A program made the translations under genes and the position numbers. A model generated the notes under the pieces. It worked only from the letters and a program-made list of their open reading frames with translations, had not been told where the DNA came from and did not search any database. Positions 3,255 to 63,059 of a stretch of DNA of 64,000 nucleotides are shown here, one piece after another. The DNA is from Pirellulaceae bacterium (GTDB lineage Bacteria > Planctomycetota > Planctomycetia > Pirellulales > Pirellulaceae), in NCBI GenBank assembly GCA_020852965.1, contig JADYZV010000111.1, positions 62,001-126,000 of the forward strand, in the 5' to 3' direction. Each line of letters begins with the position of its first letter. Positions within the stretch are counted from its first letter, which is position 1.

Positions 3255-3314
3255 CTTTCCGCGAATCGAGGAACAGGCGAATCGCATCGGTTTCTCGGCG
3301 TTTGCCGCTCGTAC
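3255..3314 (-). pseudogene. Decayed 5' end of a DGC-type gene after torD
   Basis: Directly after the TorD-like stop codon the minus strand can be read as VRAANAEKPMRFACSS. This matches the start of the intact DGC protein at 25629-26021 (MQAASDNKPILFACSG). By hand count about 33 of the first 45 bases agree. The ATG is lost and the match stops after roughly 20 codons. It marks the gene that once followed the chaperone here. Confidence 0.55.
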
Positions 3315-4115
3315 TCAATTTACCTCAATTTGATGTAGGTCCGGTGCACCGCACTCGTACGGATTGTCGGGATCGGTAATGGGTTGCATGTGATGCTCGG
3401 GCAATAGGTCGATGGGCCAAGCGTGCAAGTCGGTGAGCGACTGCCAGAGTACGAACAACCACTGGGAGGCAGCGGCGAAGTATTCGAGTCGGGTTTGTTC
3501 GCACATCTGCCAGCAGACCGACGGCAGCCAATCGTGCATGTGCTCGCGTGCGTACTTAGACAATGCTTGCATGACAACTTCATACGCTTCGCTGTTGGGA
3601 GCCCGCGAGGCAGAGGCCAACAGCATGCCTACGAACTCAAGCTGGCACAATAGATGATCGGGACGCTCTCCTAGTGACAAACTCCGCTGCCAGCCGAAGG
3701 CATGGTAAAAACCGCTTAGGTCTCCCAGGATCGTTCCCTTGTCACGGCGGATATATGAGGCTTGGTTCAATGGGCAGGCGGTCGCACCATCGAAAAGGCG
3801 GGAGTATTCGTCGGACCAAGCTTCCAGCTCGATACTTTTGGCACATCGCTGCACATCGGCCAAAGCGGACAATGGAGTGGTCCGAACTGCGTCAAGCTCC
3901 TGCGGTACACACTCTTCTGGCGTAAGGCAGGCTTGATCCGCAACGGACCCTAGGGCAGCGCGCAGCAGTTGTTGCAATTCTTCGGGCGGCAAGTCGAACC
4001 ACCTCCACTGGCCAGCTTCCTGGAACGCCTGAGGTGAACGCAACATATCAACGGTCAGAAGTACCAAGTCGGCTTGGGCAGCCAGCGCGACGGTATTCGC
4101 TTCGGAAGCGTTCAT
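3315..4115 (-). CDS. TorD/NarJ-like molybdoenzyme chaperone (delta subunit)
   Basis: The start is chosen at 4115 because ATGA there overlaps the stop of the gamma gene by four bases, typical of coupled translation. The protein of about 266 residues is helical and cytoplasmic. It has the TorD-family layout: EYSRLFDGATACPLNQASYIRRDKGTI in the middle, then a FYHAFGW turn and a DHLLCQLEFVGML helix. Such chaperones hold the Tat-exported alpha subunit until molybdenum cofactor and Fe-S clusters are in place. As last gene of the operon it belongs to the alpha-beta-gamma set upstream. Its final codons (HQIEVN stop) are repeated in the scar at 26022. Confidence 0.85.
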   Translation of the reverse strand: MNASEANTVALAAQADLVLLTVDMLRSPQAFQEAGQWRWFDLPPEELQQLLRAALGSVADQACLTPEECVPQELDAVRTTPLSALADVQRCAKSIELEAWSDEYSRLFDGATACPLNQASYIRRDKGTILGDLSGFYHAFGWQRSLSLGERPDHLLCQLEFVGMLLASASRAPNSEAYEVVMQALSKYAREHMHDWLPSVCWQMCEQTRLEYFAAASQWLFVLWQSLTDLHAWPIDLLPEHHMQPITDPDNPYECGAPDLHQIEVN

Positions 4116-5122
4116 GGATCGATCCTCATCGGAGTCCAATTGGTAATGTTCTTGCGGCCACCCCGATTGTCAGCCTGGCCATCCCACACGGCAAAGGCGA
4201 CCAATTGCTGGCTTGGATTCGCGTTGAAACGCTCGATCACTGGGTCAGCCGAGTCGATGGGACGATCGATGACCACATACCATTTACCCTCTTGCCACAC
4301 GCCGCGCCCGTGACTCGGCGTGGCATCGATATGGGTCGCGCTACCAAAGCCATGCGCGGTCAATTCCTCCACAGGGTTTTTGCGTGTGAAGTCGGCCATT
4401 GGATTGCCGGCCGATGCAGCGATCAACCATTGCTTGGAGGCCGGATCGTCGAACGACTTATCCATCGTGAAAGGCTTCTCGCCCGATGCAAACCAGTATA
4501 AATCCGCATCGGAGTTTGGATGAGTTTTGGCCCAGTCTTGAAAGCCAAGGTCGACATCTTTTTGCCAAGTAGCCTTCCAGTGCAGCATGCGCACTGGCAT
4601 CTGAGGACCACCCATTGTGTAAGGGGCTCCGTCGGTCAACGGAAACTGTACGGCCACCGCATCGGAGAACTCTCCCACGTCGCTTTGATCGGCCACGGTT
4701 GGTTGGTCCCAACTCAATCGCCAGACGTAGCGCACCCCATCGTGTACCGACTGGACTCGCAGGACTGGGACCGTGCCCGCCTCGAGCGCAGGTTGAGCTA
4801 CTTGTTGCGGCTGCAAGGGGACTTCGGCGACGGCGATCTTATCCCAAAACGGATCGAGTGGATCATCGGTCGTTGGCGCTCGGTCCACTTTGCTAACTTT
4901 GACTTCAGTTGGTGGAGCTTCGGACGTGGGCATGGTACCAGCCGCTGGCGACGCGCCGGCTAACGCCGACGCAGCCGGCAGGCTCTCGCTGGCGGCTGGA
5001 ACGACAACCACGACCGGTCGCCGCGTAACAATAAAGACCGATGCGATCATCGTCAGGAGGATCAACAGTGCGCCACCGATGATGCCCAACAGCATCCGGT
5101 TGTTTTCTTGATTACGTTCCAT
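4112..5122 (-). CDS. Haem-b gamma subunit of type II DMSO reductase family (EBDH-type)
   Basis: The start at 5122 is placed by an AAGGA site before ATGGAACG. The protein of about 336 residues has one N-terminal membrane helix (LLGIIGGALLILLTMIASVF), an Ala/Pro-rich linker, then a domain matching the ethylbenzene-dehydrogenase gamma/cytochrome c-552-like fold (RYVWRLSWDQPT, AVAVQFPL, HWKATWQKDV, GVWQEGKWYVVIDR). In this family the domain carries one b-type haem that passes electrons between the beta subunit and a periplasmic or membrane acceptor. The membrane anchor would tether the complex to the outer face of the inner membrane. It overlaps the chaperone gene by four bases. Confidence 0.85.
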   Translation of the reverse strand: MERNQENNRMLLGIIGGALLILLTMIASVFIVTRRPVVVVVPAASESLPAASALAGASPAAGTMPTSEAPPTEVKVSKVDRAPTTDDPLDPFWDKIAVAEVPLQPQQVAQPALEAGTVPVLRVQSVHDGVRYVWRLSWDQPTVADQSDVGEFSDAVAVQFPLTDGAPYTMGGPQMPVRMLHWKATWQKDVDLGFQDWAKTHPNSDADLYWFASGEKPFTMDKSFDDPASKQWLIAASAGNPMADFTRKNPVEELTAHGFGSATHIDATPSHGRGVWQEGKWYVVIDRPIDSADPVIERFNANPSQQLVAFAVWDGQADNRGGRKNITNWTPMRIDP

Positions 5123-5207
5123 GAGTGAGTTCCTTAGGCTAAGCATCGGCCAATTGTTGTCGTGGGGCACTTCGCAAACCAACGCCTGATCGCGGAGCGA
5201 TCAGCGA

Positions 5208-6335
5208 CTATGCCGTATTGTGTCGGTAGGCACCGTGCTGCTCGTCGAAATGCTTGCGGTAGTAGGTCGGCTCGGTAAACGGTACGCGGACAACTTCAAC
5301 GCCATCGACGTCCCAACCTACCGCCACGTCGCCTTGCACTTCGTATCGCGTGATGATGCGTGGGCTGGCACCAAACAACATCAAGGCACCGAGCAGTTGT
5401 TTGTCATCCTTCAAATTGCGATACATCTCCTTGGCCTCTTCAACGCCTGGGCCAAACAGTTGTTCAAGAAAGGGATCGGGGACGTGCACTGGCGGAATGT
5501 AGAACACGTTTGGTCCAGTTCCAAACTGTGGATAACAGGGCAATGCCAGTTTGCGGATCTTGATGATGTAGTCCAGTGGGTTATCCTCGCGGGGCTCCTC
5601 TTGAGTCGTCAAGAAACCGTGCAAACGGATCTTGCCGATGCACGATTCCACGCACAAAGCCACGTTGCCTTGTTCGACGCGCGGGAAGCAACCGATGCAC
5701 TTTTCACTGGCGCGATTGATGGTATTGAAAAAGACCTTCTTGTAAGGGCAGGCTTGCACGCACTCTTGATAGCCACGGCAACGCTCTTGATCGACGAGCA
5801 CAATGCCATCCTCCTCGCGCTTGTAAATCGCCTTGCGAGGGCAGGCTGCCAAACAGGCCGGGCTGTCGCAGTGATTGCAGATGCGCGCCAGATAGAACAT
5901 CCAACCGTTGTGGGTTCCATCAAAATGGGAACCCTTATCGATCATCTCCGACAGATCGTCTTCCCCCAGATTCGGCGACGAATAATCCCGTTCGCCCGGC
6001 AGGTGCCCGGCCGGTGGCTTGCCTTCTCCATTCTTCTCAAAGATGGTGATCGAATGCAGTTTCTTGCCGTCCCAAGTGGTATCGCCCATGATATCCATCA
6101 ATTTGCTATCCCAGGCGTGGGGATAGCCACCGTAGGGCTTGGTTTCGACGTTGTTCCAGAAAATCGTTTCCTGCCCTTTGCCGCTGGTCCAACACGTTTT
6201 GCAAGCCACGGTGCAAGTCTGGCACTCGATGCACTTGTTCGTATCAAAGATATAAGCGACTTGACGCTTTGGCGGCGGCGCGTCGTACGGGTACTCTTGC
6301 TCGCGACCGATGTGCCAGTTGAAGCGCTTGACCAT
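5208..6335 (-). CDS. nxrB: Fe-S beta subunit, nitrite oxidoreductase/nitrate reductase type
   Basis: A 375-residue electron-transfer subunit with the NxrB/NarH-like opening [16 protein letters not shown] and the conserved [12 protein letters not shown] segment. Four cysteine groups are visible: [38 protein letters not shown], and CIGCFP with CVESCIGK. Together they fit three [4Fe-4S] and one [3Fe-4S] cluster. There is no export signal, so it probably leaves the cell bound to the Tat-exported alpha subunit, as is known for this family. It sits 29 bp after the alpha gene. Selenate, chlorate or dimethylsulfide enzymes of the same family are alternatives, but the N-terminus resembles NXR most. 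Confidence 0.88.
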
Positions 6336-6364
6336 GGGGTGTTTCCTTGTTGGAATGCGGAATC

Positions 6365-9300
6365 CTAAGCCTTCTTGATTTGGCAGAAACTGCCAGCCAT
6401 AAACTTTTTCAAAAGCTCACTTTCGTAGGTAGGTCGCAAGCCCAAAGAGGCTGGCCGCCACAACCCTTGGCCACCGATCCCACCAGGCTCGGCGCGCGTG
6501 ATCTTGACCATCGCTTCACGCGGCGCACCGGTCGGGCAATGCACGTCCGGTACAAAGCCCTTGGTCATGTCCTGCGTCAACATCTCCTTGACGTTCAACG
6601 AGTCGGTCATCCACGTCGGCTTGATAAACCCGCGTGTGCAGCTTTGATGGCTTCCGTAGCGGAACATGGCCTTGTAATTGGTCGTCGGCGATTGCGCCAT
6701 ACCATCCGCCCGCTCCTTGGCACCTTGCACCGTGCCATAGGTCGCTCCGTGTGCGTTGTGCCACATGCGGGTAACACCGCGAGGCGTGCCGGGATAATAG
6801 CGTGCCCGCGCCATCAATCGCGCCATCTCGTAGGCTTCAGGATTGTGCTCCCAACCATGGAAGGGTCGATCCTTCGGATCGGCATCGATCCACACATAGT
6901 CACCTTCTTCGATGCCAAGTTTCTTAGCATCCAAGGGGTGCATGTCGACATACATCTCACCCACCATCGGCATGCGTCGGTCGGCGCGATTCATGTCACC
7001 AAACGGACCGAACCATACGGCGATGATGTCCACGTCCGTCGGCGTGGTATGCGCACCGTGCCGATACTTGGGGGTATGGAAGATGAATTCGTAACCGTAC
7101 CTCTTGAGTGGGTGTTCCGTCTTGAGCAGTTCTTCCACTGTCAAAATCACGTGCCGAGCCTGACGTGCTTCGCCGGAAAGGTCCTTGCGATCGGCGCCAT
7201 AATCCTCTGGACTTTTCGGCCTCAACAGCGGGTGCTGCTTGGCAACGATCACGTTCGGTTCGTAGAACGTCGAATCGATCGGTTCTCGATGCAACACCAT
7301 GTTCTCGCCACTATCCATGAATTCGGGCTCATCGCGATAGAACTCAAGTCTTCCGGTGCGGGTGTACCAAGGGCGATGCTCGTTCGATTGCTCCCAGCCG
7401 CCGACCTTGGGATAGGTCCGCGTCTCCATGATGGTCGGAATCCCCTGTGCGGCTTTGGCTTCCAGATCCTCGATGCGATGTCCGCGAGTCATATTGGAGT
7501 GATCGAGAATGCGCTGCAGATAGGGTCGCGAAGTCCCTTGATGAACGAACTGCCAATAGTCGACCATGCGTCGATCGTCGATCAACTTGCCCATCGCCGC
7601 GCATAAACCAGCCGCAACTTCAACATCTCCCTTGGTGTCGTGGATGCGAGGAAGCGACGTCGCTGGAAAGATGTAGAGAAACGGATTGGTGACACTGATG
7701 GTCATATCCGGATACTTCATTTCGGCCCAGCTATCGATTGGGAAAACAACGTCCGCATATTCGCAGCTAGCCGTCCACCACCATTCATTGACCCCTACGA
7801 ACTCGACACGCCGCAAGGTGTTGACCACAGTCTCGTAGTGTCCCTTGGCATTGCCGATCAGCGAGTTGGAATTCGATACGTGAATCGATTTGGACGGGGT
7901 GGGCAAGTGCGTCTTGCCTGTCAGTACCGCATCACCGTAGCGGAGTATGGTGTCTCCGTGATTGAAATAGTGGACCGACTCGCCACGAAAATACTTCTTG
8001 AAATTCGTCACCGGCTGCTGCGGGTCCAATTCGGGTTGGAAAGGATTTTCGGCGATGTATTGGCCCATGCCGCTGAAGAAGGCAGAGCGGTAGTTGCCTG
8101 CGTACGAGCCAACGTTTCCACCAACGAAACCGACGTTGCGAGTCAGCGCTGCGATTAGGAATACGGCGCGGTCCTTCAGGTCGCTGTTGAAGTATTGATT
8201 CGGTCCCATCCCAAGCACAAAGGAGGTCTTCTCGGGATTGGCAGCGATCTGCCGAGCCAAATTGCGGACTGCATCAGCGGGTGCCCAGGTCAGTTTTTCA
8301 ACCTGTTCGGGCGTATAGGAACCGTCGAGCAGTTCCTTGGTTACGTCATATACGGTGCGGCATTGAACCGTTTCTCCGTTCGCCAATTTGACCTCAAACG
8401 TCCCCGTCAACGCTGGCTTGATTTGCGTATCGGTGAAATACTGGCCCACCAAGTCGCGGTGAATGGCTTGTGGGCGGTCGCCAACCGAATCCCACAACAC
8501 GTAGTCGCCCCATTCCTCACGACGCACGCTGGTGAGAATCGCAGCAGGCTGCTCAAAGGGTTTGGGGGATTTTTCATTGGGCTGAGTTACGACAACTCCG
8601 TTGCGCAGCTCTTGCAGTTGATAGTCCGGAAAGACCTCTGCAGCTTGCAGCATTTGGCCGTTGTCCATCCGTATCAGCAGCGGCAGATCGGTGTGCGACG
8701 TAGTATATTGTTCGTCGTAGAGCTTCTCTTCCATGACCACTTGGGCCAGCCCCAACGCCAGGGCCGGCGTTGTTCCCGGTCGGACGATAAAGGCTTCGTC
8801 GGCCTTACTGGTTGTCGCGGAGTATTCGGCGGCGATGACTACGACCTTCGAGCCCTTCATGCGGGCTTCAGTTAACCAGTGCGCGTCGGGCATCTTGGTG
8901 CAGACCCAATTCATCCCCCACACCAAGATCAAGTTAGACTTTTCAACGTTGCACAAATCGAAGTCGACCGTCTGTTGACCCGTTACCATGGGATGGCCCG
9001 GTGGCAAGTCGGTGTGCCAGGAGTAGTTATCCCAACCGCGTGCGCCAATCGCCTGCTCCGGCTTGACCCCACGAACTTTGGCGTCGAGCAGAGCCATCGA
9101 GTTGGCAATGCGATACTGCGCGAAGATTCGCGTGGCTCCCAAGGCTGCCATGCCACCACGGAATTTTAGCGTCTGGGTGCCCGCACCTTCCGTGGCTTCT
9201 ACCATCAACGGATCATAGCCTTGGGCAAGCAAACGCTGTTGCCCTTCGGGACCGCTATAGGTGGCGGCAATGTTGGCCATGGCTGCGGCGGAGTAGTTAA

Positions 9301-9847
9301 AGGCCTCATCCCAGCTAACGGCTACCCAGGCATCGCGACCGCGATTCAAATATTTGTCCGCATCGACGGCCCCCGTTTGCGGATCGCGTGGAAAGCCCTC
9401 GTCGGCCCACTGCTTGAATCCCTTGCGAACCAGCGGTCGTTTGCAGCGACGGTCGCCGTAAAAGCGACGCACCAGCGCCAGCCCCTTTTGACATACGCGC
9501 GGTTCCCAACGCTGGCTGGCTTGATTGCCCTGCAAGTCGGTAGCTTTGGAAAAACCGAAAGTGGGACTGATGCGTGTCACCACGCCGTTCTTGACGTGCG
9601 CATTGAGTAAGCAATTGTGAGTATCGTTGGGAGCGCACAGAAACGTGAACGACGAGTCTGAGTGATATAGATCGCGATAGAGTTTTTCCCAGTCGCGGTT
9701 GGGATAACTACTAAGAGGATTTTCGACAGTCAGCGGTTCGATGCTGTGGACGGCGTCTTGAGCCCAACTATGAACCGCCGCAGCACTTGCCCCAGCCATA
9801 GTGAGTTGGTACAAGAACTGCCGACGATTCTTGCGATTCTCAGTCAT
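6365..9847 (-). CDS. nxrA: Molybdopterin alpha subunit, nitrite oxidoreductase/nitrate reductase-like, Tat-exported
   Basis: The start at 9847 follows a strong GGAGGG site. The protein of about 1160 residues begins with a twin-arginine signal (RRQFLYQL) ending in VHSWA. The FS0 cluster region reads CAPNDTHNC: Cys71, Asp75, Cys79 and Cys119 fall where NarG has His, Cys, Cys, Cys. An Asp in this set is what I recall for NXR of Nitrospira and anammox bacteria. HTDLPPGHP holds Asp280, aligned with the molybdenum ligand of NarG (WYCDLPPASP). The enzyme should catalyse nitrite/nitrate or another oxyanion conversion in the periplasm, donating to or taking electrons from beta and gamma. Direction of reaction cannot be read from sequence. 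It leads a four-gene operon. Confidence 0.88.
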
Positions 9848-9935
9848 CGAGAGTCCCTCCGGAAAGCTGACTTGCAACAGGTTCACGCGCGTGGAACCAT
9901 ACCAACGAAATGCGGAGTCGCAATTCGTGATCACC

Positions 9936-9965
9936 ATCCTATGGTTGATTGACGACACGCGTCAA
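9936..9965 (-). promoter_or_regulatory. nxr-type promoter with overlapping palindrome
   Basis: On the minus strand a TTGACG box (9960-9965) is followed after 18 bases by TAGGAT (9936-9941). The -35 box is half of a palindrome, TTGACG-N5-CGTCAA (9949-9965). The same boxes at the same spacing recur at 26209-26238 in a region that is otherwise diverged, which supports function. A repressor bound to the palindrome would cover the -35 box; the Rrf2 protein encoded beside the second copy is the obvious candidate. Confidence 0.55.
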
Positions 9966-10250
9966 GTCGCTACTCGACCACTTTCCGCCGAATTGGGCTG
10001 AGTGGTACAATTTGCCGCAGGCGCAAGCGCTGCATCGATAGTCTCGGGTGGTTGGATTCTGAGCCCACCCACACCAACAAGCGCCGCGTCTCACGCCGAG
10101 TTGCTCGATCAAGTATTCCTGAACGATGCTTGCGGAACCAAACGGATACAGTGACCAAGGTTGCCTTTGCCACCACGCATGACTGATGTCGAACAGAAGT
10201 TGCACCCCAGGGGCAACCGGCGGAGGGAATCAACGTCGCTGCCACATCGC
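9966..10250. other. Upstream region of the nxr-like operon, no clear gene
   Basis: The bases up to about 10020 match the upstream flank of the second copy (to about 26295), including the shared TGAGTGGTACAATTTG. Beyond that nothing matches. A minus-strand frame (10205 to 9939) would encode a Cys-rich peptide with CWCG and CSACACGK, but it starts with GTG without a ribosome site and runs through the promoter, so it is not called a gene. Confidence 0.35.
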
Positions 10251-10389
10251 CTAGTGCTTCGACCACTTCTAATCTTAGGATTTGGTGTAGTGGACGAGGT
10301 TACGAGTCCCTGGTACCTACTAAGTCGAAAGGACTCGTAACCTCGTCCACCCCAACCAACCCCAAAGTCTAATGTGGTCAAAGCACAAG
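10251..10389. repeat. Palindromic repeat family A, copy 2
   Basis: The best preserved copy, 139 bp. Outer ends are CTAGTGCTTCGACCAC and its near-complement GTGGTCAAAGCACAAG. Inner arms are GTGTAGTGGACGAGG-TTACGAGTCC and GGACTCGTAACCTCGTCCAC. The element could fold into one long hairpin. It lies just past the stop of the small membrane peptide gene and may also end its transcript. Confidence 0.85.
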
Positions 10390-10394
10390 ACGAT

Positions 10395-23795: not shown

Positions 23796-25286
23796 TCATT
23801 CCATGCTGGTGCTCAAGAGGCTACTGCCAATCGCGTTTGGTGGTGCAATTCCATTCAGTAGCCTCTCCACGACGTCAGCCGCCGCATAGCTGGTTGCCTC
23901 GGGAGACTTCAAGAACTGCACAATGCTGGCGACATCGTTGCCGCAGGTCACCAAAGGTTGCTCCAGTTCGCTGCCGTGTCGGCGCTGACCCATGCCGATA
24001 TTTGCCAACAAGCCATTGCAGACGCACTTGCGGCCAACGGTGTCGTCGAGCGCGCCACCTTTGTGCACATACGCTTTGACCGGTTCGCCAGGGCAACGCC
24101 AACCGACCGTTCCATCTTCTTTTCGGTAGCCCTGCCGCAGGAAGCCCAGATCGCAGACGCGTGTGCGCTGCTCGAATACCGTAGCATCGGACATCGAACC
24201 GTCGATTTGCAAGACCTTAAAGGGAAAGCCCGTGGGGGATGCCAGCGGATCGGTCAGCACATCGGGTTGGCCCTGGCGGCACTGCTTCAGCACCAGTTGC
24301 TTGATGTCGCCGCGAAACCCAGATTCCTCGCAAAAGGCAAAAGCCGTACCGACCTGGACGCCGGTTGCACCCAGCTCGATCGCATCGCGGACTTTTTCGG
24401 GTGATCCATAGGAGCCGGCCAGCCAGAAGGGTAGCCCCAATTCGGCGATGGCCGCCAGGTCAACGGCATCGCGAGGCCCATAGACAGGCTCGCCGCGTTC
24501 GTTCAGCGGCAACTTGCCTCGCGGCGGTGCGTTGTGTCCGCCTGCGGTTGGGCCCTCGATGATAAATCCATCGACGTGTCCGTTTGATTTGCGTGCCAAC
24601 ATGGTCGCCAGGGTCGTCGACGCAACAATCGCCAGAAACTTTGGACGATTCAACCAAGGAATGTCGCCGCCACCAAAGGATAGCGGGTCAAAGCGGCTAA
24701 CAAATTCGTCATCACGCTGCGCGCCGACGATGTGCAAGGGTAACTCGACCGGCAAACCTTCCTGCAGACGGTCCAAAATGCCTGGGATGGCACGAGGGAT
24801 GCCGGCGCCCATCAGCACGTAGTCGACGCCCGCTAACATAGCACCGTACAAAGATGGCAATGTTGGCGTTTGAATCTTTTCGAGATAATTGATCCCTATC
24901 CGCCCTGTGTGGCCCTCTTTGGCCAAGGTGACTTCGACGAAATTGGCGACGACCACTAGCTCCACTTCGGCTTGCGAGGGCTCATGTGACAATACCATGG
25001 TCGGCGCATGAGAAGCGTCGCAATCCATCCCTCCTTCGACGTAATAGCGATCGATAATTCGCTGAGCCATGTGGGGATACGGGAAGTCGGCCAAGGCGCG
25101 GCGCATGTGCCCCCCGATATCTCCCAGTTGCAATCGCCGTACGAGCACTACGTCAATCGCTGTGCCAGAGACAACACCCAACTGGCCAGTCAGGGAAACC
25201 GCGCGGGCTAGTTCCCAGTTAGATACCGCAACCCCCATACCGCCTTGGATAAGGGTTGGATCCGATCGCTGTTCTTTTTCCTGCAT
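23796..25286 (-). CDS. Nitronate monooxygenase/2-nitropropane dioxygenase-like flavoprotein
   Basis: The start at 25286 has an AGGAG site nine bases upstream. The 496-residue protein shows a TIM-barrel flavoprotein of the NMO/FabK group: IQGGMGVAVSNWELARAVS at the N-terminus, GADYVLMGAGIP-like segment (VDYVLMGAGIPR), IEGPTAGGHN, LPFWLAGSYGSPEKVRDAIELGATGVQVGTAF. It is longer than typical nitronate monooxygenases (about 320-350) because of a C-terminal part with several Cys (RVCDLGFLRQ, GRKCVCNGL) that could hold a metal or cluster. It is the last gene of the DGC-GYD-NMO operon. The substrate is unknown; a link to nitrogen oxides is suggested only by its neighbours. Confidence 0.75.
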   Translation of the reverse strand: MQEKEQRSDPTLIQGGMGVAVSNWELARAVSLTGQLGVVSGTAIDVVLVRRLQLGDIGGHMRRALADFPYPHMAQRIIDRYYVEGGMDCDASHAPTMVLSHEPSQAEVELVVVANFVEVTLAKEGHTGRIGINYLEKIQTPTLPSLYGAMLAGVDYVLMGAGIPRAIPGILDRLQEGLPVELPLHIVGAQRDDEFVSRFDPLSFGGGDIPWLNRPKFLAIVASTTLATMLARKSNGHVDGFIIEGPTAGGHNAPPRGKLPLNERGEPVYGPRDAVDLAAIAELGLPFWLAGSYGSPEKVRDAIELGATGVQVGTAFAFCEESGFRGDIKQLVLKQCRQGQPDVLTDPLASPTGFPFKVLQIDGSMSDATVFEQRTRVCDLGFLRQGYRKEDGTVGWRCPGEPVKAYVHKGGALDDTVGRKCVCNGLLANIGMGQRRHGSELEQPLVTCGNDVASIVQFLKSPEATSYAAADVVERLLNGIAPPNAIGSSLLSTSME

Positions 25287-25343: not shown

Positions 25344-25604
25344 TTAGGTATCAAAGACTCTCAGGGGACGAGTGCGAACGTTCCCAACCTTGGCGAACTT
25401 CACTAGTAACGCCGCACCCGTGGACTCATCGGACGCTTCAAAAACGACACAGCCATCGACATCGCCGATCGACCGGTATTGAGAAAGCAGCTTTCCGCCG
25501 GCGGATTGTACCGACTGCGCAAAGGAGTCTGCTCGCTGGAGCGTGTCGCCAGTGTTGCGAAGGCCTTGGTCAGTGAAACTGATTGGAGTGAGATAGCGAA
25601 TCAT
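25344..25604 (-). CDS. GYD domain protein, 86 residues
   Basis: A small cytoplasmic alpha/beta protein with the GYD family pattern: MIRYLTPISFTDQGLRNTGD, AGGKLLSQYRSIGDVDGCVVFEA. The canonical Gly-Tyr-Asp turn is here Gly-Asp-Val-Asp. Function of the family is unknown; members resemble dimeric ferredoxin-like folds. It lies 25 bp after the DGC gene and 58 bp before the monooxygenase-like gene, so co-transcription is likely. Confidence 0.7.
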   Translation of the reverse strand: MIRYLTPISFTDQGLRNTGDTLQRADSFAQSVQSAGGKLLSQYRSIGDVDGCVVFEASDESTGAALLVKFAKVGNVRTRPLRVFDT

Positions 25605-25628: not shown

Positions 25629-26021
25629 CTATTTGTTGGCTAGGGCATCACCCGTTAAGCTCTGGCGACCGATATCTTGCAACACATCTTCGATCAATGC
25701 GTCCAAGGCTTCACCGGTGGGAGCGGTAGAGTTCTTTTTAATCCCCAAGTCGTGCAAGCGGATATGCACGTCGATATGCTCGTGAACTTGGTCGAAGACA
25801 CCCAGGCAGCAATGGATCGGGCAACCGTCGATGCTCCACACCGGGCGTTGTTTTAGCTTTTTCAGGAACAGCGGTTTGGCAGCGCCAATGCCAGCCAAAC
25901 AAGACATTTCAGCTACACCGCGGCGGTCCAATTCGTGAGCCACATCATTGGCCAACTGCCCCGCATTCGAACAACCGGAACAGGCGAATAGGATTGGTTT
26001 GTTATCGCTTGCTGCTTGCAT
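25629..26021 (-). CDS. Putative zinc-binding DGC domain protein
   Basis: A 130-residue protein with the DGC family pattern: CSGCSNAGQLANDVAHEL, CLAGIGA, then IDGCPIHCCLGVF. The cysteines are proposed to bind zinc; function is unknown. Its ATG directly follows a TGA that matches the end of the torD-like gene, so in the ancestor it was the next gene of an nxr-type operon. A decayed copy of its first 20 codons sits after the real torD at 3255-3314. Today it appears to be the first gene behind the retained nxr-type promoter at 26209-26238. Confidence 0.8.
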   Translation of the reverse strand: MQAASDNKPILFACSGCSNAGQLANDVAHELDRRGVAEMSCLAGIGAAKPLFLKKLKQRPVWSIDGCPIHCCLGVFDQVHEHIDVHIRLHDLGIKKNSTAPTGEALDALIEDVLQDIGRQSLTGDALANK

Positions 26022-26208
26022 TCAATTCACCTCAATTTCGATGTGCGCTGCGTCAACGCATGCCCCGCCCTGGTTGATTGGGTACAAGAACTGGCGGTGG
26101 TTCTCGCGATTCCCAGCCTTCGAGAACCACTCCAGAAAGCAGACTTGCAATGGCTTTACAAGTCTTGAATGCTTACCAGGAAACCCGGAGTTGCATTTCG
26201 TGAATACT
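26022..26208 (-). pseudogene. Operon scar: nxrA 5' leader and first codons joined to torD 3' end
   Basis: Read on the minus strand, the leader matches that of the nxrA-like gene, including CTTGCAAGTC and a GGAGTGG ribosome site. The start codon position (26118-26120) is now AAG. Codons for NRENHRQFLYP follow (intact gene: [11 protein letters not shown]; the Tat arginine pair has become His-Arg). The frame then passes through a short join and ends in IEIEVN-stop, matching QIEVN-stop of the TorD-like protein. Everything between, over 5 kb in the intact operon, is absent. It now serves as an untranslated leader of the DGC gene. Confidence 0.75.
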
Positions 26209-26238
26209 ATCCTACTATCGTTGGACGACATTCGTCAA
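26209..26238 (-). promoter_or_regulatory. Retained nxr-type promoter, second copy
   Basis: TTGACG (26233-26238) and TAGGAT (26209-26214) on the minus strand keep the 18-base spacing seen before nxrA. The palindrome is kept with one changed base (26222-26238). Since the coding part behind it has decayed but the boxes have not, it probably still works, reading into the DGC-GYD-monooxygenase operon. Confidence 0.55.
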
Positions 26239-26271
26239 GCTGCGACTTGGCCATTCCCCAAGAAATAGATT

Positions 26272-26287
26272 GAGTGGTACAATTTGT
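26272..26287 (+). promoter_or_regulatory. Possible rrf2 promoter -10 region
   Basis: TGAGTGGTACAATTTG is shared almost base for base with 10001-10016. TACAAT would be a fair -10 box reading rightward to the Rrf2 gene 60 bp downstream. No convincing -35 box was found. At the nxr locus the same segment has no gene to its right, which suggests a regulator gene was lost there. Confidence 0.3.
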
Positions 26288-26348
26288 CCTAGGCGCGAGC
26301 AACTTATCGCGAATGGATTTCAACAGAGGCTTACCCCAGACACTCAAT

Positions 26349-26798
26349 ATGATTCATCACAAGACTACGCAGAACGCTATTGCGGCCATGAGCCGTTTGG
26401 CGGAACTACACGCAGACGCTTCGCGAAGCGCATCGTCGCGCGAGTTGGCCGAGAGTCGGAATTTACCCGTTCCACTGGTGGCCAAGATACTGACGGTATT
26501 GTCGCGCAACGGCTTAGTCACCGGCTCGCCTGGCCCCGGTGGCGGCTACCGTTTGGCCAAACCACCTGCAAAAATTCGTTTGAAGGACGTGGCTGTACTG
26601 TTCGAGCGCGAGACCGAGGGACTATGCGCCTACGGTCCCGGATGGTGCGGCCACGGAACGCCATGCCCGCTCCACGATTCCGTATCTCAGATGAAAGAAG
26701 TCTTCGAGGAGTTTTTGAACAAGACCACTTTCGCCGTCTTTGAGAATAGCGATCCGAAGCCAGCCAAGCGCCGAGCGAGTACGAAAAGAAAGCCGTAA
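26349..26798 (+). CDS. Rrf2 family Fe-S transcription regulator
   Basis: The start at 26349 gives a 149-residue protein of usual Rrf2 length. A winged helix (SSRELAESRNLPVPLVAKILTVL, then SPGPGGGYRLA for the wing) is followed by a cysteine set CAYGPGWCGHGTPC, spaced C-X6-C-X5-C. This resembles the cluster ligands of IscR/NsrR-type sensors of redox state or nitric oxide. It is divergent from the retained nxr-type promoter. It is therefore a good candidate to bind the TTGACG-N5-CGTCAA palindrome at both loci; this is an inference from position. Confidence 0.85.
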   Translation: MIHHKTTQNAIAAMSRLAELHADASRSASSRELAESRNLPVPLVAKILTVLSRNGLVTGSPGPGGGYRLAKPPAKIRLKDVAVLFERETEGLCAYGPGWCGHGTPCPLHDSVSQMKEVFEEFLNKTTFAVFENSDPKPAKRRASTKRKP

Positions 26799-47462: not shown

Positions 47463-50015
47463 ATGGCCGACAACCCCCGTTTGCTGCATCCGCTCTATAG
47501 CTTGTTACCTGTTGAAATCGACGGTTTCGATTCTTTGGCGGAATTGGCCTTGGATCTTCGATCGTCGTGGAATCATGCGACCGATGAAATCTGGCGCAGG
47601 CTTGATGCGGAATTGTGGGAGCTCACGCACAATCCATGGGTGGTGGTGCAAACGGTGGCACGGCAACGGCTTGAACGTGTCCTGGGCGACGTCGAGTTCC
47701 GCGCCAAGGTGGACGAGCTGGTGCGAGTGCGACGACAGACGGCAGAACAACCAGCTTGGTTTCAGCAGGCGTACAAGTCGCAGTGTCCACTGACCTGCGT
47801 TGCCTATTTCTGCATGGAATTCATGCTCAGCGAATCGTTGCCGATCTACTCCGGTGGCCTAGGGAACGTCGCAGGGGATCAATTGAAAGCCGCCAGTGAT
47901 CTGGGAATGCCCGTCGTCGGTGTCGGACTACTCTATCAACAGGGCTACTTTCGCCAAATCATCGACCGAACGGGGCAGCAACACGCCTTGTATCCCTACA
48001 ACGACCCTGGCCAATTGCCGATCGCGCCGCTGCGAGACGCCGATGGCGAGTGGTTGCGGTTGAAGATGGAGTTGCCGGGCTACAGCGTCTGGTTGCGCGC
48101 TTGGCAAGCTCAGGTAGGACGAACGAAACTCTATTTGCTCGATAGCAATGATGCGGCCAACCTGCCCGAGCATCGCGGCATCACCAGCGAATTGTATGGC
48201 GGCGGTTCCGAACTGCGCTTGAAGCAGGAAATGATTTTGGGCTTCGGCGGCTGGCGTTTACTCGGAGAATTGGGAATTCGACCGGAAGTCTGTCATCTCA
48301 ATGAAGGCCATGCCGCGTTTGCGGTATTACAGCGCGCCTGGGAGTTCATGCAGGCATCGGGCCAGTCGTTTGAAGTGGCACTGGCCGTCACACGGGCGGG
48401 CAATGTATTTACAACTCATACCGCCGTACCCGCCGGATTCGACCGCTTTGCCCCCGAGTTGATCCGGCAGTACCTGGCCCGATATGCCAGCCAGGGATTT
48501 GGTATTTCCATCGACGAGGTGTTGGCGTTGGGACGGCAGAACCCACACGATGAGTCTGAGAGCTTCAACATGGCCTACCTCGCGATTCGCGGCAGCGGGT
48601 CAATCAACGGTGTCAGCCAACTGCATGGGCAGGTGAGCCGGCGTCTGTTCGAGCCGTTGTTTCCAGGTTGGCCGGAACACGAAGTGCCTGTGGCCCATGT
48701 CACCAACGGGGTTCATATGCCCAGTTGGGATTCGGCGGAAGCGGATGAGATCTGGACACATATGTGCGGCCAGCAGCGTTGGTTGGGCACCAGTGAGACG
48801 CTCGCCTGCGATATCGAGCAAGTGACGGATGAGAAACTCTGGCAGTTTCGAGTTGACGCCACGCACAGTTTGATCGACTACGCGCGAAAACGTCTGGCGC
48901 GACAACTCGCCGGTTTAGGGGCATCGCCTGAAGACATCGAGTATGCCAAGCATCTGTTTGATCCAAGCACTTTGACGCTCGGCTTTGCCCGACGTTTCGC
49001 GACCTACAAGCGGCCCAATTTGCTTCTGCACGATCCCGATCGGTTGATACGACTGTTGACCAACCCCGAGCATCCAGTGCAACTGATCATTGCCGGCAAG
49101 GCGCACCCTGCCGACAAGCTTGGACAGGAATTGATTCGTCAGTGGATCGAATTCATTCGCCAACCGGCCGTTCGATCGCACGTGATGTTCCTGAGCGACT
49201 ACGACATGCTGATGACAGAGAACTTGGTGCAGGGCGTCGATGTTTGGATCAACACACCGCGGCGGCCGTGGGAAGCGAGCGGGACCAGCGGTATGAAGGT
49301 TTTGGTCAATGGTGGCCTGAATCTATCGCAGCTTGATGGCTGGTGGGCCGAAGCCTACACGCCGGAGGTCGGCTGGGCGATCGGCGACGGCCTGGAACAT
49401 GGCGACGATCCCGCCTGGGACGGCGCCGAAGCAGAGCAGTTGTATGAGGTGCTCGAACGCGAAGTCGTGCCGGAATTCTATAGCCGCAACGCGGATGGGA
49501 TCCCCACGGCGTGGATATCTCGCATGCGCGCCAGCATGTCACAACTGACGCCCCAGTACTCCGCCGTTCGCACGGTTCGAGAATACGCCGAACAACACTA
49601 CCTGCCGGCAGCGACCGCCTACCGCAAGCGGGCCGAGTTCAATGGTTCGCTCGGTACTAGCATCGTCAATTGGGAGCACGCCGTCCGTGACAAGTGGAAC
49701 TTGCTAAAGTTCGGCGATGTCAACATTGAATCCAACGACGCAGAGCATGCGTTTGAGGTACAAGTCTGCCTTAGTAGTCTTGACCCCGCGTTTGTCAGAG
49801 TGCAATTGTATGCCGAAGCGACGCCCGATCATGCGCTCGTCCAAACCGAAATGACCCACCTCGAATCCAACGACAAAACGGAATCAACTTGGGCCATTTA
49901 TCGCGCCAGCGTTCCCGCCACGCGGCCGGCCAGCCATTTCACACCCCGCATCGTGCCATATCACTCAAATGTTTCCGTTCCCTTGGAAGTAAACCTGATC
50001 AAGTGGCAGCGGTGA
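47463..50015 (+). CDS. glgP: Glycogen/alpha-glucan phosphorylase, short type
   Basis: An 850-residue alpha-glucan phosphorylase of the TIGR02094 type, lacking the long N-terminal part of the E. coli enzyme. YFCMEFMLSESLPIYSGGLGNVAGDQLKAASDLG is the family opening; LNEGHAAFAVLQ and WEASGTSGMKVLVNGG, containing the pyridoxal phosphate lysine, form the active site. It releases glucose-1-phosphate from glycogen in the cytoplasm. About 50 bp after its stop lies a uspA scar, and a scar of its own 3' part sits at 52000-52172 before the intact uspA, so a glgP-uspA pair was once duplicated. Confidence 0.93.
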   Translation: MADNPRLLHPLYSLLPVEIDGFDSLAELALDLRSSWNHATDEIWRRLDAELWELTHNPWVVVQTVARQRLERVLGDVEFRAKVDELVRVRRQTAEQPAWFQQAYKSQCPLTCVAYFCMEFMLSESLPIYSGGLGNVAGDQLKAASDLGMPVVGVGLLYQQGYFRQIIDRTGQQHALYPYNDPGQLPIAPLRDADGEWLRLKMELPGYSVWLRAWQAQVGRTKLYLLDSNDAANLPEHRGITSELYGGGSELRLKQEMILGFGGWRLLGELGIRPEVCHLNEGHAAFAVLQRAWEFMQASGQSFEVALAVTRAGNVFTTHTAVPAGFDRFAPELIRQYLARYASQGFGISIDEVLALGRQNPHDESESFNMAYLAIRGSGSINGVSQLHGQVSRRLFEPLFPGWPEHEVPVAHVTNGVHMPSWDSAEADEIWTHMCGQQRWLGTSETLACDIEQVTDEKLWQFRVDATHSLIDYARKRLARQLAGLGASPEDIEYAKHLFDPSTLTLGFARRFATYKRPNLLLHDPDRLIRLLTNPEHPVQLIIAGKAHPADKLGQELIRQWIEFIRQPAVRSHVMFLSDYDMLMTENLVQGVDVWINTPRRPWEASGTSGMKVLVNGGLNLSQLDGWWAEAYTPEVGWAIGDGLEHGDDPAWDGAEAEQLYEVLEREVVPEFYSRNADGIPTAWISRMRASMSQLTPQYSAVRTVREYAEQHYLPAATAYRKRAEFNGSLGTSIVNWEHAVRDKWNLLKFGDVNIESNDAEHAFEVQVCLSSLDPAFVRVQLYAEATPDHALVQTEMTHLESNDKTESTWAIYRASVPATRPASHFTPRIVPYHSNVSVPLEVNLIKWQR

Positions 50016-50060
50016 GAGCACGGTGCGAATTCATCGCCCATTTCCCGGTGAGGTGACGTT

Positions 50061-50190
50061 GCTCGCGAAGGTCCGGCCCGTCGAAGTAGTTGACTTGATG
50101 GTCTCCTTTGCGCGAGCTCAGCACGCGAAGCCGCCTCGGAATTGCTGTTGTGGAAACTGAGCGGCGACACGCTTACCAGCGTTCTGAACT
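50061..50190 (+). pseudogene. uspA scar with internal deletion
   Basis: CTCGCGAAGGTC...TGGTCTC and then AAGCCGCCTCGGAATTGCTG...GCGGCGACACG match two separate parts of uspA at 52223-53125. The join is at CACGCG (50122-50127), a six-base word found at both edges of the missing 349 bp in the intact gene (52349-52354 and 52698-52703). This is a classic short-direct-repeat deletion. The right end runs into the 3' end of the exporter gene. Confidence 0.8.
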
Positions 50191-51999: not shown

Positions 52000-52172
52000 A
52001 TTGGCCGTCGTGATTGACCCGCATGCGCGCCAGCAGGTGACAATTGACGCCCCAGATTTCCACAGTTCGCTCAATCTGAGAATACGCCGACCAACACTAG
52101 CCAGCAGCGACAGCTCAATTGCAAGCGGAGCTGGGACAGCGGAGCACTCGGCACGGAACTTGCGTCATTGGT
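52000..52172 (+). pseudogene. glgP scar upstream of intact uspA
   Basis: CGCATGCGCGCCAGCA, TGACGCCCCAG, GAGAATACGCCGA and CAACACTA occur in the same order and spacing as in glgP at 49521-49600. Weaker matches continue to about 52172 (glgP 49673). The rest of glgP is missing and the frame is broken. This corresponds to codons roughly 685-735 of GlgP. Confidence 0.8.
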
Positions 52173-52222
52173 TGTTGGATTATTACCAGTTGATTTGACC
52201 GATTGCCCACGGAGATACGACG

Positions 52223-53125
52223 ATGAAGATTTTATTGCCTGTTGATGGTTCCAAGGCGGCACGCGAAGCCGTTGATTTCGTTCGTTCACTCGCGAAGGTC
52301 AGACCGGTCGAGGTGGTTGTCTCGATGGTCTCTTTCGCGCCAGCTCAGCACGCGATGCAGCCGTACAGCTCTGAATGGAAAGAGCAAGAAAACCTGTACA
52401 TCCAAAAGGTTCTGGATAATGCCAAGCATGCATTGGACGTAGATTGCCAATCGGTTTCGATCATTCATGGTGCAGGCTCAGTGGTGCCTTGCATTCTGGA
52501 TCAAGCCAGGGATTCAAAGGTGGACTTGATTGTGATGGGGGCCAAAGGGCTTTCGACGACGAAACGCTCGCACTTGGGTAGCGTGTCGGACAATATTGCA
52601 ACTCGCGCGGATTGTTCCGTCGTGGTGGTTCGCCCTGGTCGAAGGAAGAATCAACATTTGGGTAAAATCCTGCTCGCCTTTGACAAGTCTGCCGCTTCAC
52701 GCGAAGCCGCCTCGGAATTGCTGCTGTGGAAACTGAGCGGCGACACGCATATCAGCGTTGTCAGTGTCGCACAAACCCCGAGTATCTTCACTGATGACGG
52801 ATGTGTCTCTTCGCCCCACCCGCTAACGCCCGAGCAAATCTCGCCGATCAACGATGCCGCCATCCGCATGGCGAGTCATATCGCTGAGCAACACGCGAAG
52901 ACCGATACGCAGACGCTGTCTGCCGATCATATTGGCGAAGCGATTGTAGAAGCTGCCGAGAAAGCAGAAGCTGATTTGATCGTCGTCGGCGATGCAGGGC
53001 ATAGTCGACGAGGCGACTTCTTCCTCGGCAGCACATCCAAGTACCTTCTGCGCCACGCTTCGTGCAGCGTTTGGATTTCGCGGTATCACTGGAAGACGGA
53101 CGCTAAGGAAGCAGCGCCAGAGTAG
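52223..53125 (+). CDS. Tandem universal stress protein UspA
   Basis: The start at 52223 has CGGAG nine bases upstream. A 300-residue protein with two UspA domains: MKILLPVDGSKAAREAVDFV starts the first, DLIVMGAKGLSTTKRSHLGSVSDNIATRADCSVVVV ends it; the second ends with DLIVVGDAGHSRRGDFFLGSTSKYLLRHASCSVWI. Both carry the G-x2-G-x9-G-S type ATP site. It is the intact partner of the scar at 50061. Its TAG stop (53123-53125) lies at the left edge of a family A repeat. Confidence 0.88.
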   Translation: MKILLPVDGSKAAREAVDFVRSLAKVRPVEVVVSMVSFAPAQHAMQPYSSEWKEQENLYIQKVLDNAKHALDVDCQSVSIIHGAGSVVPCILDQARDSKVDLIVMGAKGLSTTKRSHLGSVSDNIATRADCSVVVVRPGRRKNQHLGKILLAFDKSAASREAASELLLWKLSGDTHISVVSVAQTPSIFTDDGCVSSPHPLTPEQISPINDAAIRMASHIAEQHAKTDTQTLSADHIGEAIVEAAEKAEADLIVVGDAGHSRRGDFFLGSTSKYLLRHASCSVWISRYHWKTDAKEAAPE

Positions 53126-61700: not shown

Positions 61701-63059
61701 TTACTCCGATGCCTCCGGTGTAGCATCTTCAACGCCCAACACACTTTCGTCCGGCTCGATCGTCTCAAGCATGGATGTGACCCGGACTCCCGGTCGAACT
61801 CGCTGAATGCCCCCCACGACGACTTGATCGCCCGCGTTCAATCCTGAGCGCACGATCCGCAGCCCCAATGCCATGGAACCAGCCTCGATCGGACGCATCG
61901 CCACCGTGCCGTCGGCGTCGACGACGTACACGAACTGTTCCGACTGATCGGTGCCAACTGCTGCATCGGGAACCAACAATGCATCAAACGCAGGAGTCTC
62001 GGCGATTCGCAGTTTACCAAACATGCCCGGTGTTAAAATTCCGTCATCGTTTTCAAAAATAGCACGCGCCGTCATCGTTGCCGTGACTGGATCGAAGCGG
62101 TTGTCGACAAAGTCCAAATAGCCTCGATGCGGGAATCCCGTTTCATCTTCTAAACGCATGTAGGCAGGATACTTGACATCACGAGCACTTTTGCGAGCAC
62201 CTTCCAGGATCAATCGCTGAAAGCGCAATACCTGTTGCTCGCTGGCATCAAACAACATGTAGATCGGATCGAGCGATACGATGGTTGTCAGCACCACCGA
62301 TTGGTCATTGCCACCGCTGATCAGGTTGCCTTCGGTCACGTTCTTGCGACTGGTACGACCAGCAACCGGCGCGGTGATGCGAGTGTAGTCCAAATTCAAT
62401 TGAGCCTCATTGACGGCCGCTTGCGCAGTAACGATCGTCGCCTTGGCCGTGGAAATCGCTGCCCTGGCCGATGCAATCTCCGCATCGGAACCCTGCACCT
62501 GCGCGCTCGCTGTCTTATACTCGTTGCGAGCGCGATCGAAGTCCGACTGAGAACTCACGTTGCGTTGTTGCAAAGTCTTCTGTCGGTCAAACTCGCTAGT
62601 CGTGAATTCCAAGTTGGACTCGGCGGTCAGCTTGTTCGCAGCCGCAGTCGCCAGTTGAGCCTCCGCTTGCTCGCCACGCGCCTTCGCCTCTTCCAAGTTC
62701 GCTTTGGCGGTCTCCAACGCGGCTTCAAACGGACGCGGATCGACAACAAACAGTAAGTCGCCCGCTTCGATGAGTTGTCCTTCCTGGAACTCAACCGATT
62801 TCAAGTAGCCGCTCACGCGAGAGCGTATCTCGACGAAATCGACCGCTTGCAAACGGCCCGTGAACTCCGCCCACTCGACCACTTCACGCTCTACAGGAAT
62901 GGCGACACGAACAATTGGCAGCTCGGTACCCGCACTGGGAGGACCAGCGGGCGATGATTTCCGACTGCATCCCGCAATCGAGAATAGAACCAACGCTGTA
63001 GAGGAAGTCGCCACTACCACTCGGAAGGCGTGTGAGAGAAAATGTTTGAAAAAGCTCAA
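61701..63059 (-). CDS. RND periplasmic adaptor (membrane fusion protein) lipoprotein
   Basis: A 452-residue AcrA/MexA-like protein. The signal has a lipobox (LFSIAGC), so it is probably a lipoprotein. The barrel-lipoyl-hairpin order is clear: VEFTGRLQAVDFVEIRSRVSGYL, a long coiled hairpin (AKANLEEAKARGEQAEAQLATAA ...), then LNLDYTRITAPVAGRTSRKNVTEG. It bridges the RND pump to an outer-membrane channel. Genes downstream on the same strand: the pump itself. Confidence 0.92.
   Translation of the reverse strand: MSFFKHFLSHAFRVVVATSSTALVLFSIAGCSRKSSPAGPPSAGTELPIVRVAIPVEREVVEWAEFTGRLQAVDFVEIRSRVSGYLKSVEFQEGQLIEAGDLLFVVDPRPFEAALETAKANLEEAKARGEQAEAQLATAAANKLTAESNLEFTTSEFDRQKTLQQRNVSSQSDFDRARNEYKTASAQVQGSDAEIASARAAISTAKATIVTAQAAVNEAQLNLDYTRITAPVAGRTSRKNVTEGNLISGGNDQSVVLTTIVSLDPIYMLFDASEQQVLRFQRLILEGARKSARDVKYPAYMRLEDETGFPHRGYLDFVDNRFDPVTATMTARAIFENDDGILTPGMFGKLRIAETPAFDALLVPDAAVGTDQSEQFVYVVDADGTVAMRPIEAGSMALGLRIVRSGLNAGDQVVVGGIQRVRPGVRVTSMLETIEPDESVLGVEDATPEASE

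Follow-up and report, generated by a model that had tools for sequence, protein, structure and literature searches.

We analyzed a 64,000-nt window (positions 62001–126000 of contig C111) of the genome G000, an assembly of 8.37 Mb in 199 contigs. At the locus under study, three genes for DGC-domain, GYD-domain, and NMO-family proteins lie on the minus strand behind a stretch, which we call the scar, that joins the promoter and start of an nxrA gene to the end of a torD gene. A gene for an Rrf2-family regulator, which an earlier reader's account of the locus had not included, diverges from the scar promoter. The regulator passes the Rrf2 domain cut-off (PF02082, 84.7 bits against a curated 30; TIGR00738, 79.3 bits against 73.3), and IscR chains are among its PDB matches. 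Because it falls below the cut-off of the NsrR equivalog model (NF008240, 29.2 bits against 182), we do not claim NO sensing for it. Comparison of DGC with solved structures gave no meaningful match.

The same window holds an intact operon at 3315–9847. NxrA residues 8 to 1157 match residues 5 to 1146 of PDB chain 7b04_B, which we take to be Kuenenia NxrA, at 908.9 bits, while the next best chains score 182.8 bits. The catalytic subunit is thus close to a characterized NxrA along its length and the operon of the nitrite-oxidoreductase type by sequence, which does not give the direction of the reaction. Scored against the DMSO reductase type II subfamily models of NCBIfam, the A, B, and C subunits and the chaperone all fell below the curated cut-offs (best scores against cut-offs: A 299/984.75, B 275.1/480.7, C 123.2/169.85, chaperone 51.8/152.3 bits). 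The operon stands beside the Act (alternative complex III) operon, and PstS and PDZ genes lie to the left of its DGC remnant. An imperfect, REP-like palindrome with 64-nt arms is found at 10246–10394. With up to two mismatches allowed, the two strands of the genome together give 608 matches to its 20-base core, so its presence beside the intact block is not special, and we rejected movement of the block by flanking palindromes (1842 and 10290). A second NXR cluster in the genome (C131:8992–15769, order C-A-B-torD) was likewise rejected as the missing copy because it is of a distant type (39%). Three direct-repeat pieces at 49521–50183 and 52020–52759, at most 95% alike over 62 bases, represent a further local duplication.

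Table 1. Features of the scar locus and of the intact operon, in window coordinates
Feature	Position	Strand	Basis
NMO-family (nitronate monooxygenase-like) gene	23796..25286	-	PF03060 1.5e-15
GYD-domain gene	25344..25604	-	PF08734 1.2e-17
DGC-domain gene	25629..26021	-	PF08859 1.5e-26
Remnant of the last torD codons, ending IEVN-stop, with likely DGC ribosome site	26022..26060	-	
Proposed deletion junction, with nxrA reading in frame into torD	26045..26060	-	best chimera breakpoints 9788 and 3353
Remnant of nxrA codons 1–20	26061..26120	-	8 codons unchanged, 2 synonymous, 10 nonsynonymous
Eroded dyad, former putative Rrf2 operator	26179..26200	-	5/9 arm pairs
Core promoter TTGACG-N18-TAGGAT	26209..26238	-	both hexamers identical to 9965-9936
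Eroded upstream box TAGGACAAAT (intact copy TGCGGCAAAT)	26282..26291	-	7/10 identical
Rrf2-family regulator, divergent from scar promoter	26346..26798	+	PF02082 8.2e-24
Decayed first 15 codons of second DGC copy	3270..3314	-	DNA homology stops at 3270
torD-like chaperone	3315..4139	-	PF02613 4.3e-16
nxrC-like (heme b, EB_dh)	4112..5182	-	PF09459 1.6e-23
nxrB, Fe-S subunit	5208..6335	-	PF13247 3.5e-31
nxrA, NXR-type molybdopterin subunit	6365..9847	-	7b04_B, E 3.5e-272
nxrA promoter, leader, and first 20 codons (the scar's partner)	9788..10028	-	pairwise alignment and window self-comparison
Dyad CGAATTGCG-ACTC-CGCATTTCG, putative Rrf2 operator	9906..9927	-	8/9 arm pairs

The original prediction read the scar, on the minus strand, as the nxrA promoter, leader, and start fused to the end of torD and followed by DGC, and alignment bears this out. 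The stretch 26300–26061 is a diverged copy of 10028–9788 (72.8% identity over 243 columns, E 2e-28), and when the 64-kb window is compared with itself, this pair is the best non-self DNA match. In the same comparison, 26044–25977 matches the torD end and DGC start at 3336–3270 (79.4% over 68 columns, E 2.5e-8). Aligned pairwise on the minus strand, 26310–26050 and 10040–9780 gave a local score of 149, and 26065–25945 and 3360–3240 gave 64; the maxima of 1000 dinucleotide shuffles were 28 and 24. These scores and E values rule out chance similarity. When the whole 8.37-Mb genome was searched with 25629–26310, the only matches were the query itself and the two places in the intact operon. A chimera that joins the nxrA start, cut at 9788, to the torD end, cut at 3353, aligns in frame across the entire scar with a score of 208, compared with 149 and 64 for its halves, although in a 60-by-65 grid of breakpoints several alternatives lay within a few points of the best, so that the position of the junction microhomology is ambiguous.

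Two details of the prediction needed amending. The nxrA start codon, ATG at 9847, has indeed become AAG (26120–26118), but 20 codons rather than about ten precede the junction; and DGC does follow the torD end, but with no gap, the torD stop running directly into the DGC start (TGA-ATG). The decayed DGC start expected after the intact torD is present at the DNA level as 15 codons (3314–3270). A protein-level match to DGC residues 1 to 33 reaches 3204 (E 0.013) and was not counted because unrelated proteins match there as well (ActE 0.004, rSAM 0.010). No remnant of GYD or NMO to the left of the intact torD, and none of Rrf2 beside the intact operon, rose above noise.

Within the promoter region the two copies are 77% identical without gaps, with the core hexamers unchanged (12/12), the dyad at 17/22, and the upstream box at 7/10; given the overall identity, twelve unchanged bases are only weakly surprising. 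A promoter scan found the core site as the sole site in each region (chance expectation 0.4–0.5 per scan). TTGAC recurs in all eight promoters compared (the two window copies and six relatives), and 18 bases beyond the –35 hexamer five of them (G237, G213, G065, and the two window copies) carry TAnnAT. At this position G011 and G012 have TACAAC or TATAAC, while G113 has AAAAAC. The upstream box lies 42 or 53–54 bp before the –35 element in the intact copy and in five of the six relatives. In the scar itself the box is not significant (P 0.54), and a window search with a longer form gave 5 hits against 3.8 expected; the box is a post hoc motif, and the P values of both dyad and box are post hoc.

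Downstream of the –10 element the promoters share a dyad pattern, CGAATTGCG-N4-CGCAATTCG, of varying quality. Eight of nine arm pairs match in the intact copy and G237, seven in G012, G065, and G113, six (in a different register) in G213, and five in G011 and the scar; the shuffle P is below 0.05 in only three of the eight (intact copy, G237, and G065). In G012 and G113 the dyad lies 30 bases past the –35 element rather than 37–38. Because it is weak or shifted in several relatives, the five pairs at the scar are not proof of lost binding. A degenerate form of the pattern, itself built on the promoters of the intact copy and of G237, has one zero-mismatch place in G000 and one in G237, in both cases the nxr promoter; allowing two mismatches on both strands gave 18 hits in G000, with the reversed-pattern control not far below at 7. 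The locus suggests a dedicated putative Rrf2 operator for Kuenenia-type NXR in Pirellulaceae.

We compared gene order across seven family genomes with a full-length NxrA of at least 77% identity. By inferred name G237 is Stieleria sedimenti ICT_E10.1, G213 a Rubripirellula MAG, and G011 a Planctomycetales MAG; G002, which has only the 3′ part of nxrA, was excluded. Rrf2 diverges from nxrA in six of the seven (G237, G213, G011, G012, G065, and G113, not G177). Relatives were examined for an unsplit order, and partial orders were found: G237 has nxrA-B-C-torD-GYD-NMO contiguously, without DGC between, and G177 has torD followed after ~740 bp by DGC. The full order nxrABC-torD-DGC-GYD-NMO occurred in none of the relatives among the ten genomes with a close DGC homologue. 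GYD adjoins NMO in two of the 30 NMO loci examined, those of G000 and G237. The Act operon lies beside Rrf2-nxrA in G011, G012, and G113, with its cytochrome gene towards nxr as at the window's intact copy, and a tandem duplication may have taken in Act. Other fragments were seen in these genomes. In G177, a 24-codon copy of the nxrB start immediately precedes the full nxrB (L079, C1:1270796–1270867). In G002, nxrA from residue 733 abuts a divergent ActA matched from residue 80 (L035, C315:3497–5356, on a 5.4-kb contig), which may be a real fusion or an assembly error.

Together, these comparisons are best explained, at a probability of about 0.78 for the reading as a whole, by a duplication in this lineage followed by one deletion of ~6.4 kb at the regulator-linked copy. 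An Rrf2-regulated operon nxrABC-torD-DGC(-GYD-NMO) would have been duplicated in direct orientation. A single deletion from nxrA codon 21 to near the torD end would then have brought the nxrA start into frame with the torD end and left DGC-GYD-NMO behind the old nxr promoter, and the other copy, beside the Act operon, would have kept nxrABC-torD while its DGC was cut to 15 codons. The proposal that one ancestral operon existed twice, each copy losing what the other kept, holds for nxrABC-torD against DGC past codon 15. No remnant of GYD or NMO was recognized beside the intact operon, so reciprocal loss is seen only up to DGC codon 15. Common origin of the two loci and reciprocal loss up to DGC, as in an operon split by duplication and complementary loss, were thus both found. 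The scar is probably the original site and the intact operon the relocated copy because Rrf2 and GYD-NMO stand at the scar as they do in G237 and because Rrf2 diverges from nxrA in six of seven relatives.

The alternative that survives best, although we consider it unlikely, is that a sole operon lost nxrABC-torD and that a close relative with the same torD-DGC junction later donated a new operon, which came to lie beside Act. Horizontal transfer is in fact likely here because most genes of the cluster have nearer counterparts in other genera (NxrA 89% to G237 and 88% to G213) than in the same-genus G011 and G012 (77%). ActD, however, matches the two groups about equally well, and the best matches to rSAM and AmOx are in G011 and G012. 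On the side of reacquisition, the operon abuts PstS, which among 40 genomes searched is matched at E ≤ 1e-60 only within the genus (12 of 14 other same-genus genomes, 0 of 25 others), with the PDZ gene adjoining it in 12 of 12. Against reacquisition, a donor with both IEVN-stop and the torD-DGC junction is required, and none was found: both torD ends in the window read IEVN-stop, while G237 has IRSH and G177 IQT. The two promoters are, moreover, sisters relative to G237 and G213. In a quartet of 214 common columns, 32 informative sites group scar with intact copy and 4 and 4 favor the alternatives; the two are 71% alike and each 49–55% alike to G237 and G213, so that the quartet rests on noncoding sequence with only that much similarity between the window and other genera. 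Because the promoter copies are sisters and both torD ends read IEVN, we place the duplication within the G000 lineage, and it looks younger than the split from G237, G213, and G177.

A further reading takes the in-frame nxrA-torD fusion at the scar to be a functional leader peptide through which translation is coupled to DGC. No stop codon interrupts the frame between the old nxrA start and the torD stop (KAGNRENHRQFLYPINQGGACVDAAHIEIEVN-stop), the DGC ATG comes directly after, and an ATG further upstream would yield 69 codons. The start codon is lost, however, an in-frame junction has a one-in-three chance, and 10 of the 12 changed nxrA codons are nonsynonymous. Since only two changes are synonymous, the peptide is, by its codons, decaying rather than kept, and we regard a working leader as very improbable. 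Least credible of all is that no second full operon existed and DGC-GYD-NMO merely captured a short copied fragment of the nxr promoter. The scar does hold only small nxrA and torD pieces, but the torD end and DGC start occur in both places, the pieces join like the deletion of one contiguous operon, and the scar has Rrf2 as its neighbor, just as nxrA does in relatives.

Under duplication and deletion, the core promoter would probably still drive DGC-GYD-NMO through the decayed leader. That the old nxr promoter now does so, perhaps without Rrf2 control, is plausible because the –35 and –10 elements are unchanged and no terminator-like site was found at 25900–26450. If the dyad is the Rrf2 operator, its erosion would have loosened control at the scar while nxr kept it. 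We tentatively raise, as a possibility that we hold to be considerably less probable than not, that the locus is a fossil of regulatory subfunctionalization, in which the nxr genes kept the Rrf2 promoter and the NO-linked DGC-GYD-NMO kept the regulator neighborhood and core promoter but lost the operator.

The contexts of DGC homologues bear on what these genes may do. Close homologues were found in six of 241 family genomes (E ≤ 1e-35) and eight of 396 order genomes (E ≤ 1e-40), overlapping sets that share four and total ten genomes; weaker homologues in G065, G052, G021, and G023 and a second one in G177 were left out. DGC lies near nxr in G000, G177, G095, G044, and G412, and within ~3.2 kb of qNor or RIC in G237, G189, G095, G017, G059, and G329, so that besides G000 all nine genomes place it within ~3.2 kb of nxr or qNor/RIC (a raw count). 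RIC and flavohemoprotein owe their names to NCBIfam matches above cut-off, and qNor to its Pfam NorB and COX1 domains; a neighbor provisionally called NnrS proved YwiC-like and was rejected. Three of these loci involve distant-type nxr (L144, L143, and L047): DGC follows nxrC-A-B-torD in G412, precedes nxrC-A-B-torD in G095, and lies on the opposite strand in G044. G059 has qNor-DGC-NMO, and in G000 RIC is present elsewhere in the genome. The G237 DGC lies away from nxr in the order hmp-(qNor remnant)-DGC-RIC, where a similar scar stands ahead of the same gene: directly before DGC is a gutted qNor (L074, C235:58430–58900) with residues 31–94 joined out of frame to 755–803 and ~660 codons gone. 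Because DGC homologues lie near nxr, qNor, or RIC, we infer from gene context that the handling of NO or nitro compounds is the probable role of DGC-GYD-NMO.

Gene order alone is the usual basis for inferring that an operon has broken up. The present locus allows a base-by-base comparison, since it offers the junction of the deletion, the promoter in both copies, and the regulator linked to it, and a relative has most of the unsplit operon. The titles listed in a literature search included no description of a readable operon scar or of the present one, although such a listing cannot prove that none exists. That operons can split through duplication and complementary loss is a known concept (PMC2213666). 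The present case resembles duplication-degeneration-complementation acting on an operon, the two copies jointly holding the full gene set after each lost part; what differs here is that the point of joining can still be read and that divergence extends to the regulatory sites. Passages of PMC10732223 describe Kuenenia-type NxrA relatives in non-anammox Planctomycetota MAGs, with NrfD/ActD gene clusters in the text and an iron-dependent regulator in a figure legend; the present locus, with its order A-B-C-torD, divergent Rrf2, and split operon, may differ from the clusters in those MAGs.

In this planctomycete genome, then, an old nxr promoter stands ahead of three small accessory genes, DGC-GYD-NMO, and the contexts in which DGC recurs suggest that the DGC family is tied to the handling of nitrite and NO. 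If the subfunctionalization reading is true, two functions that were once coupled would now be set independently.
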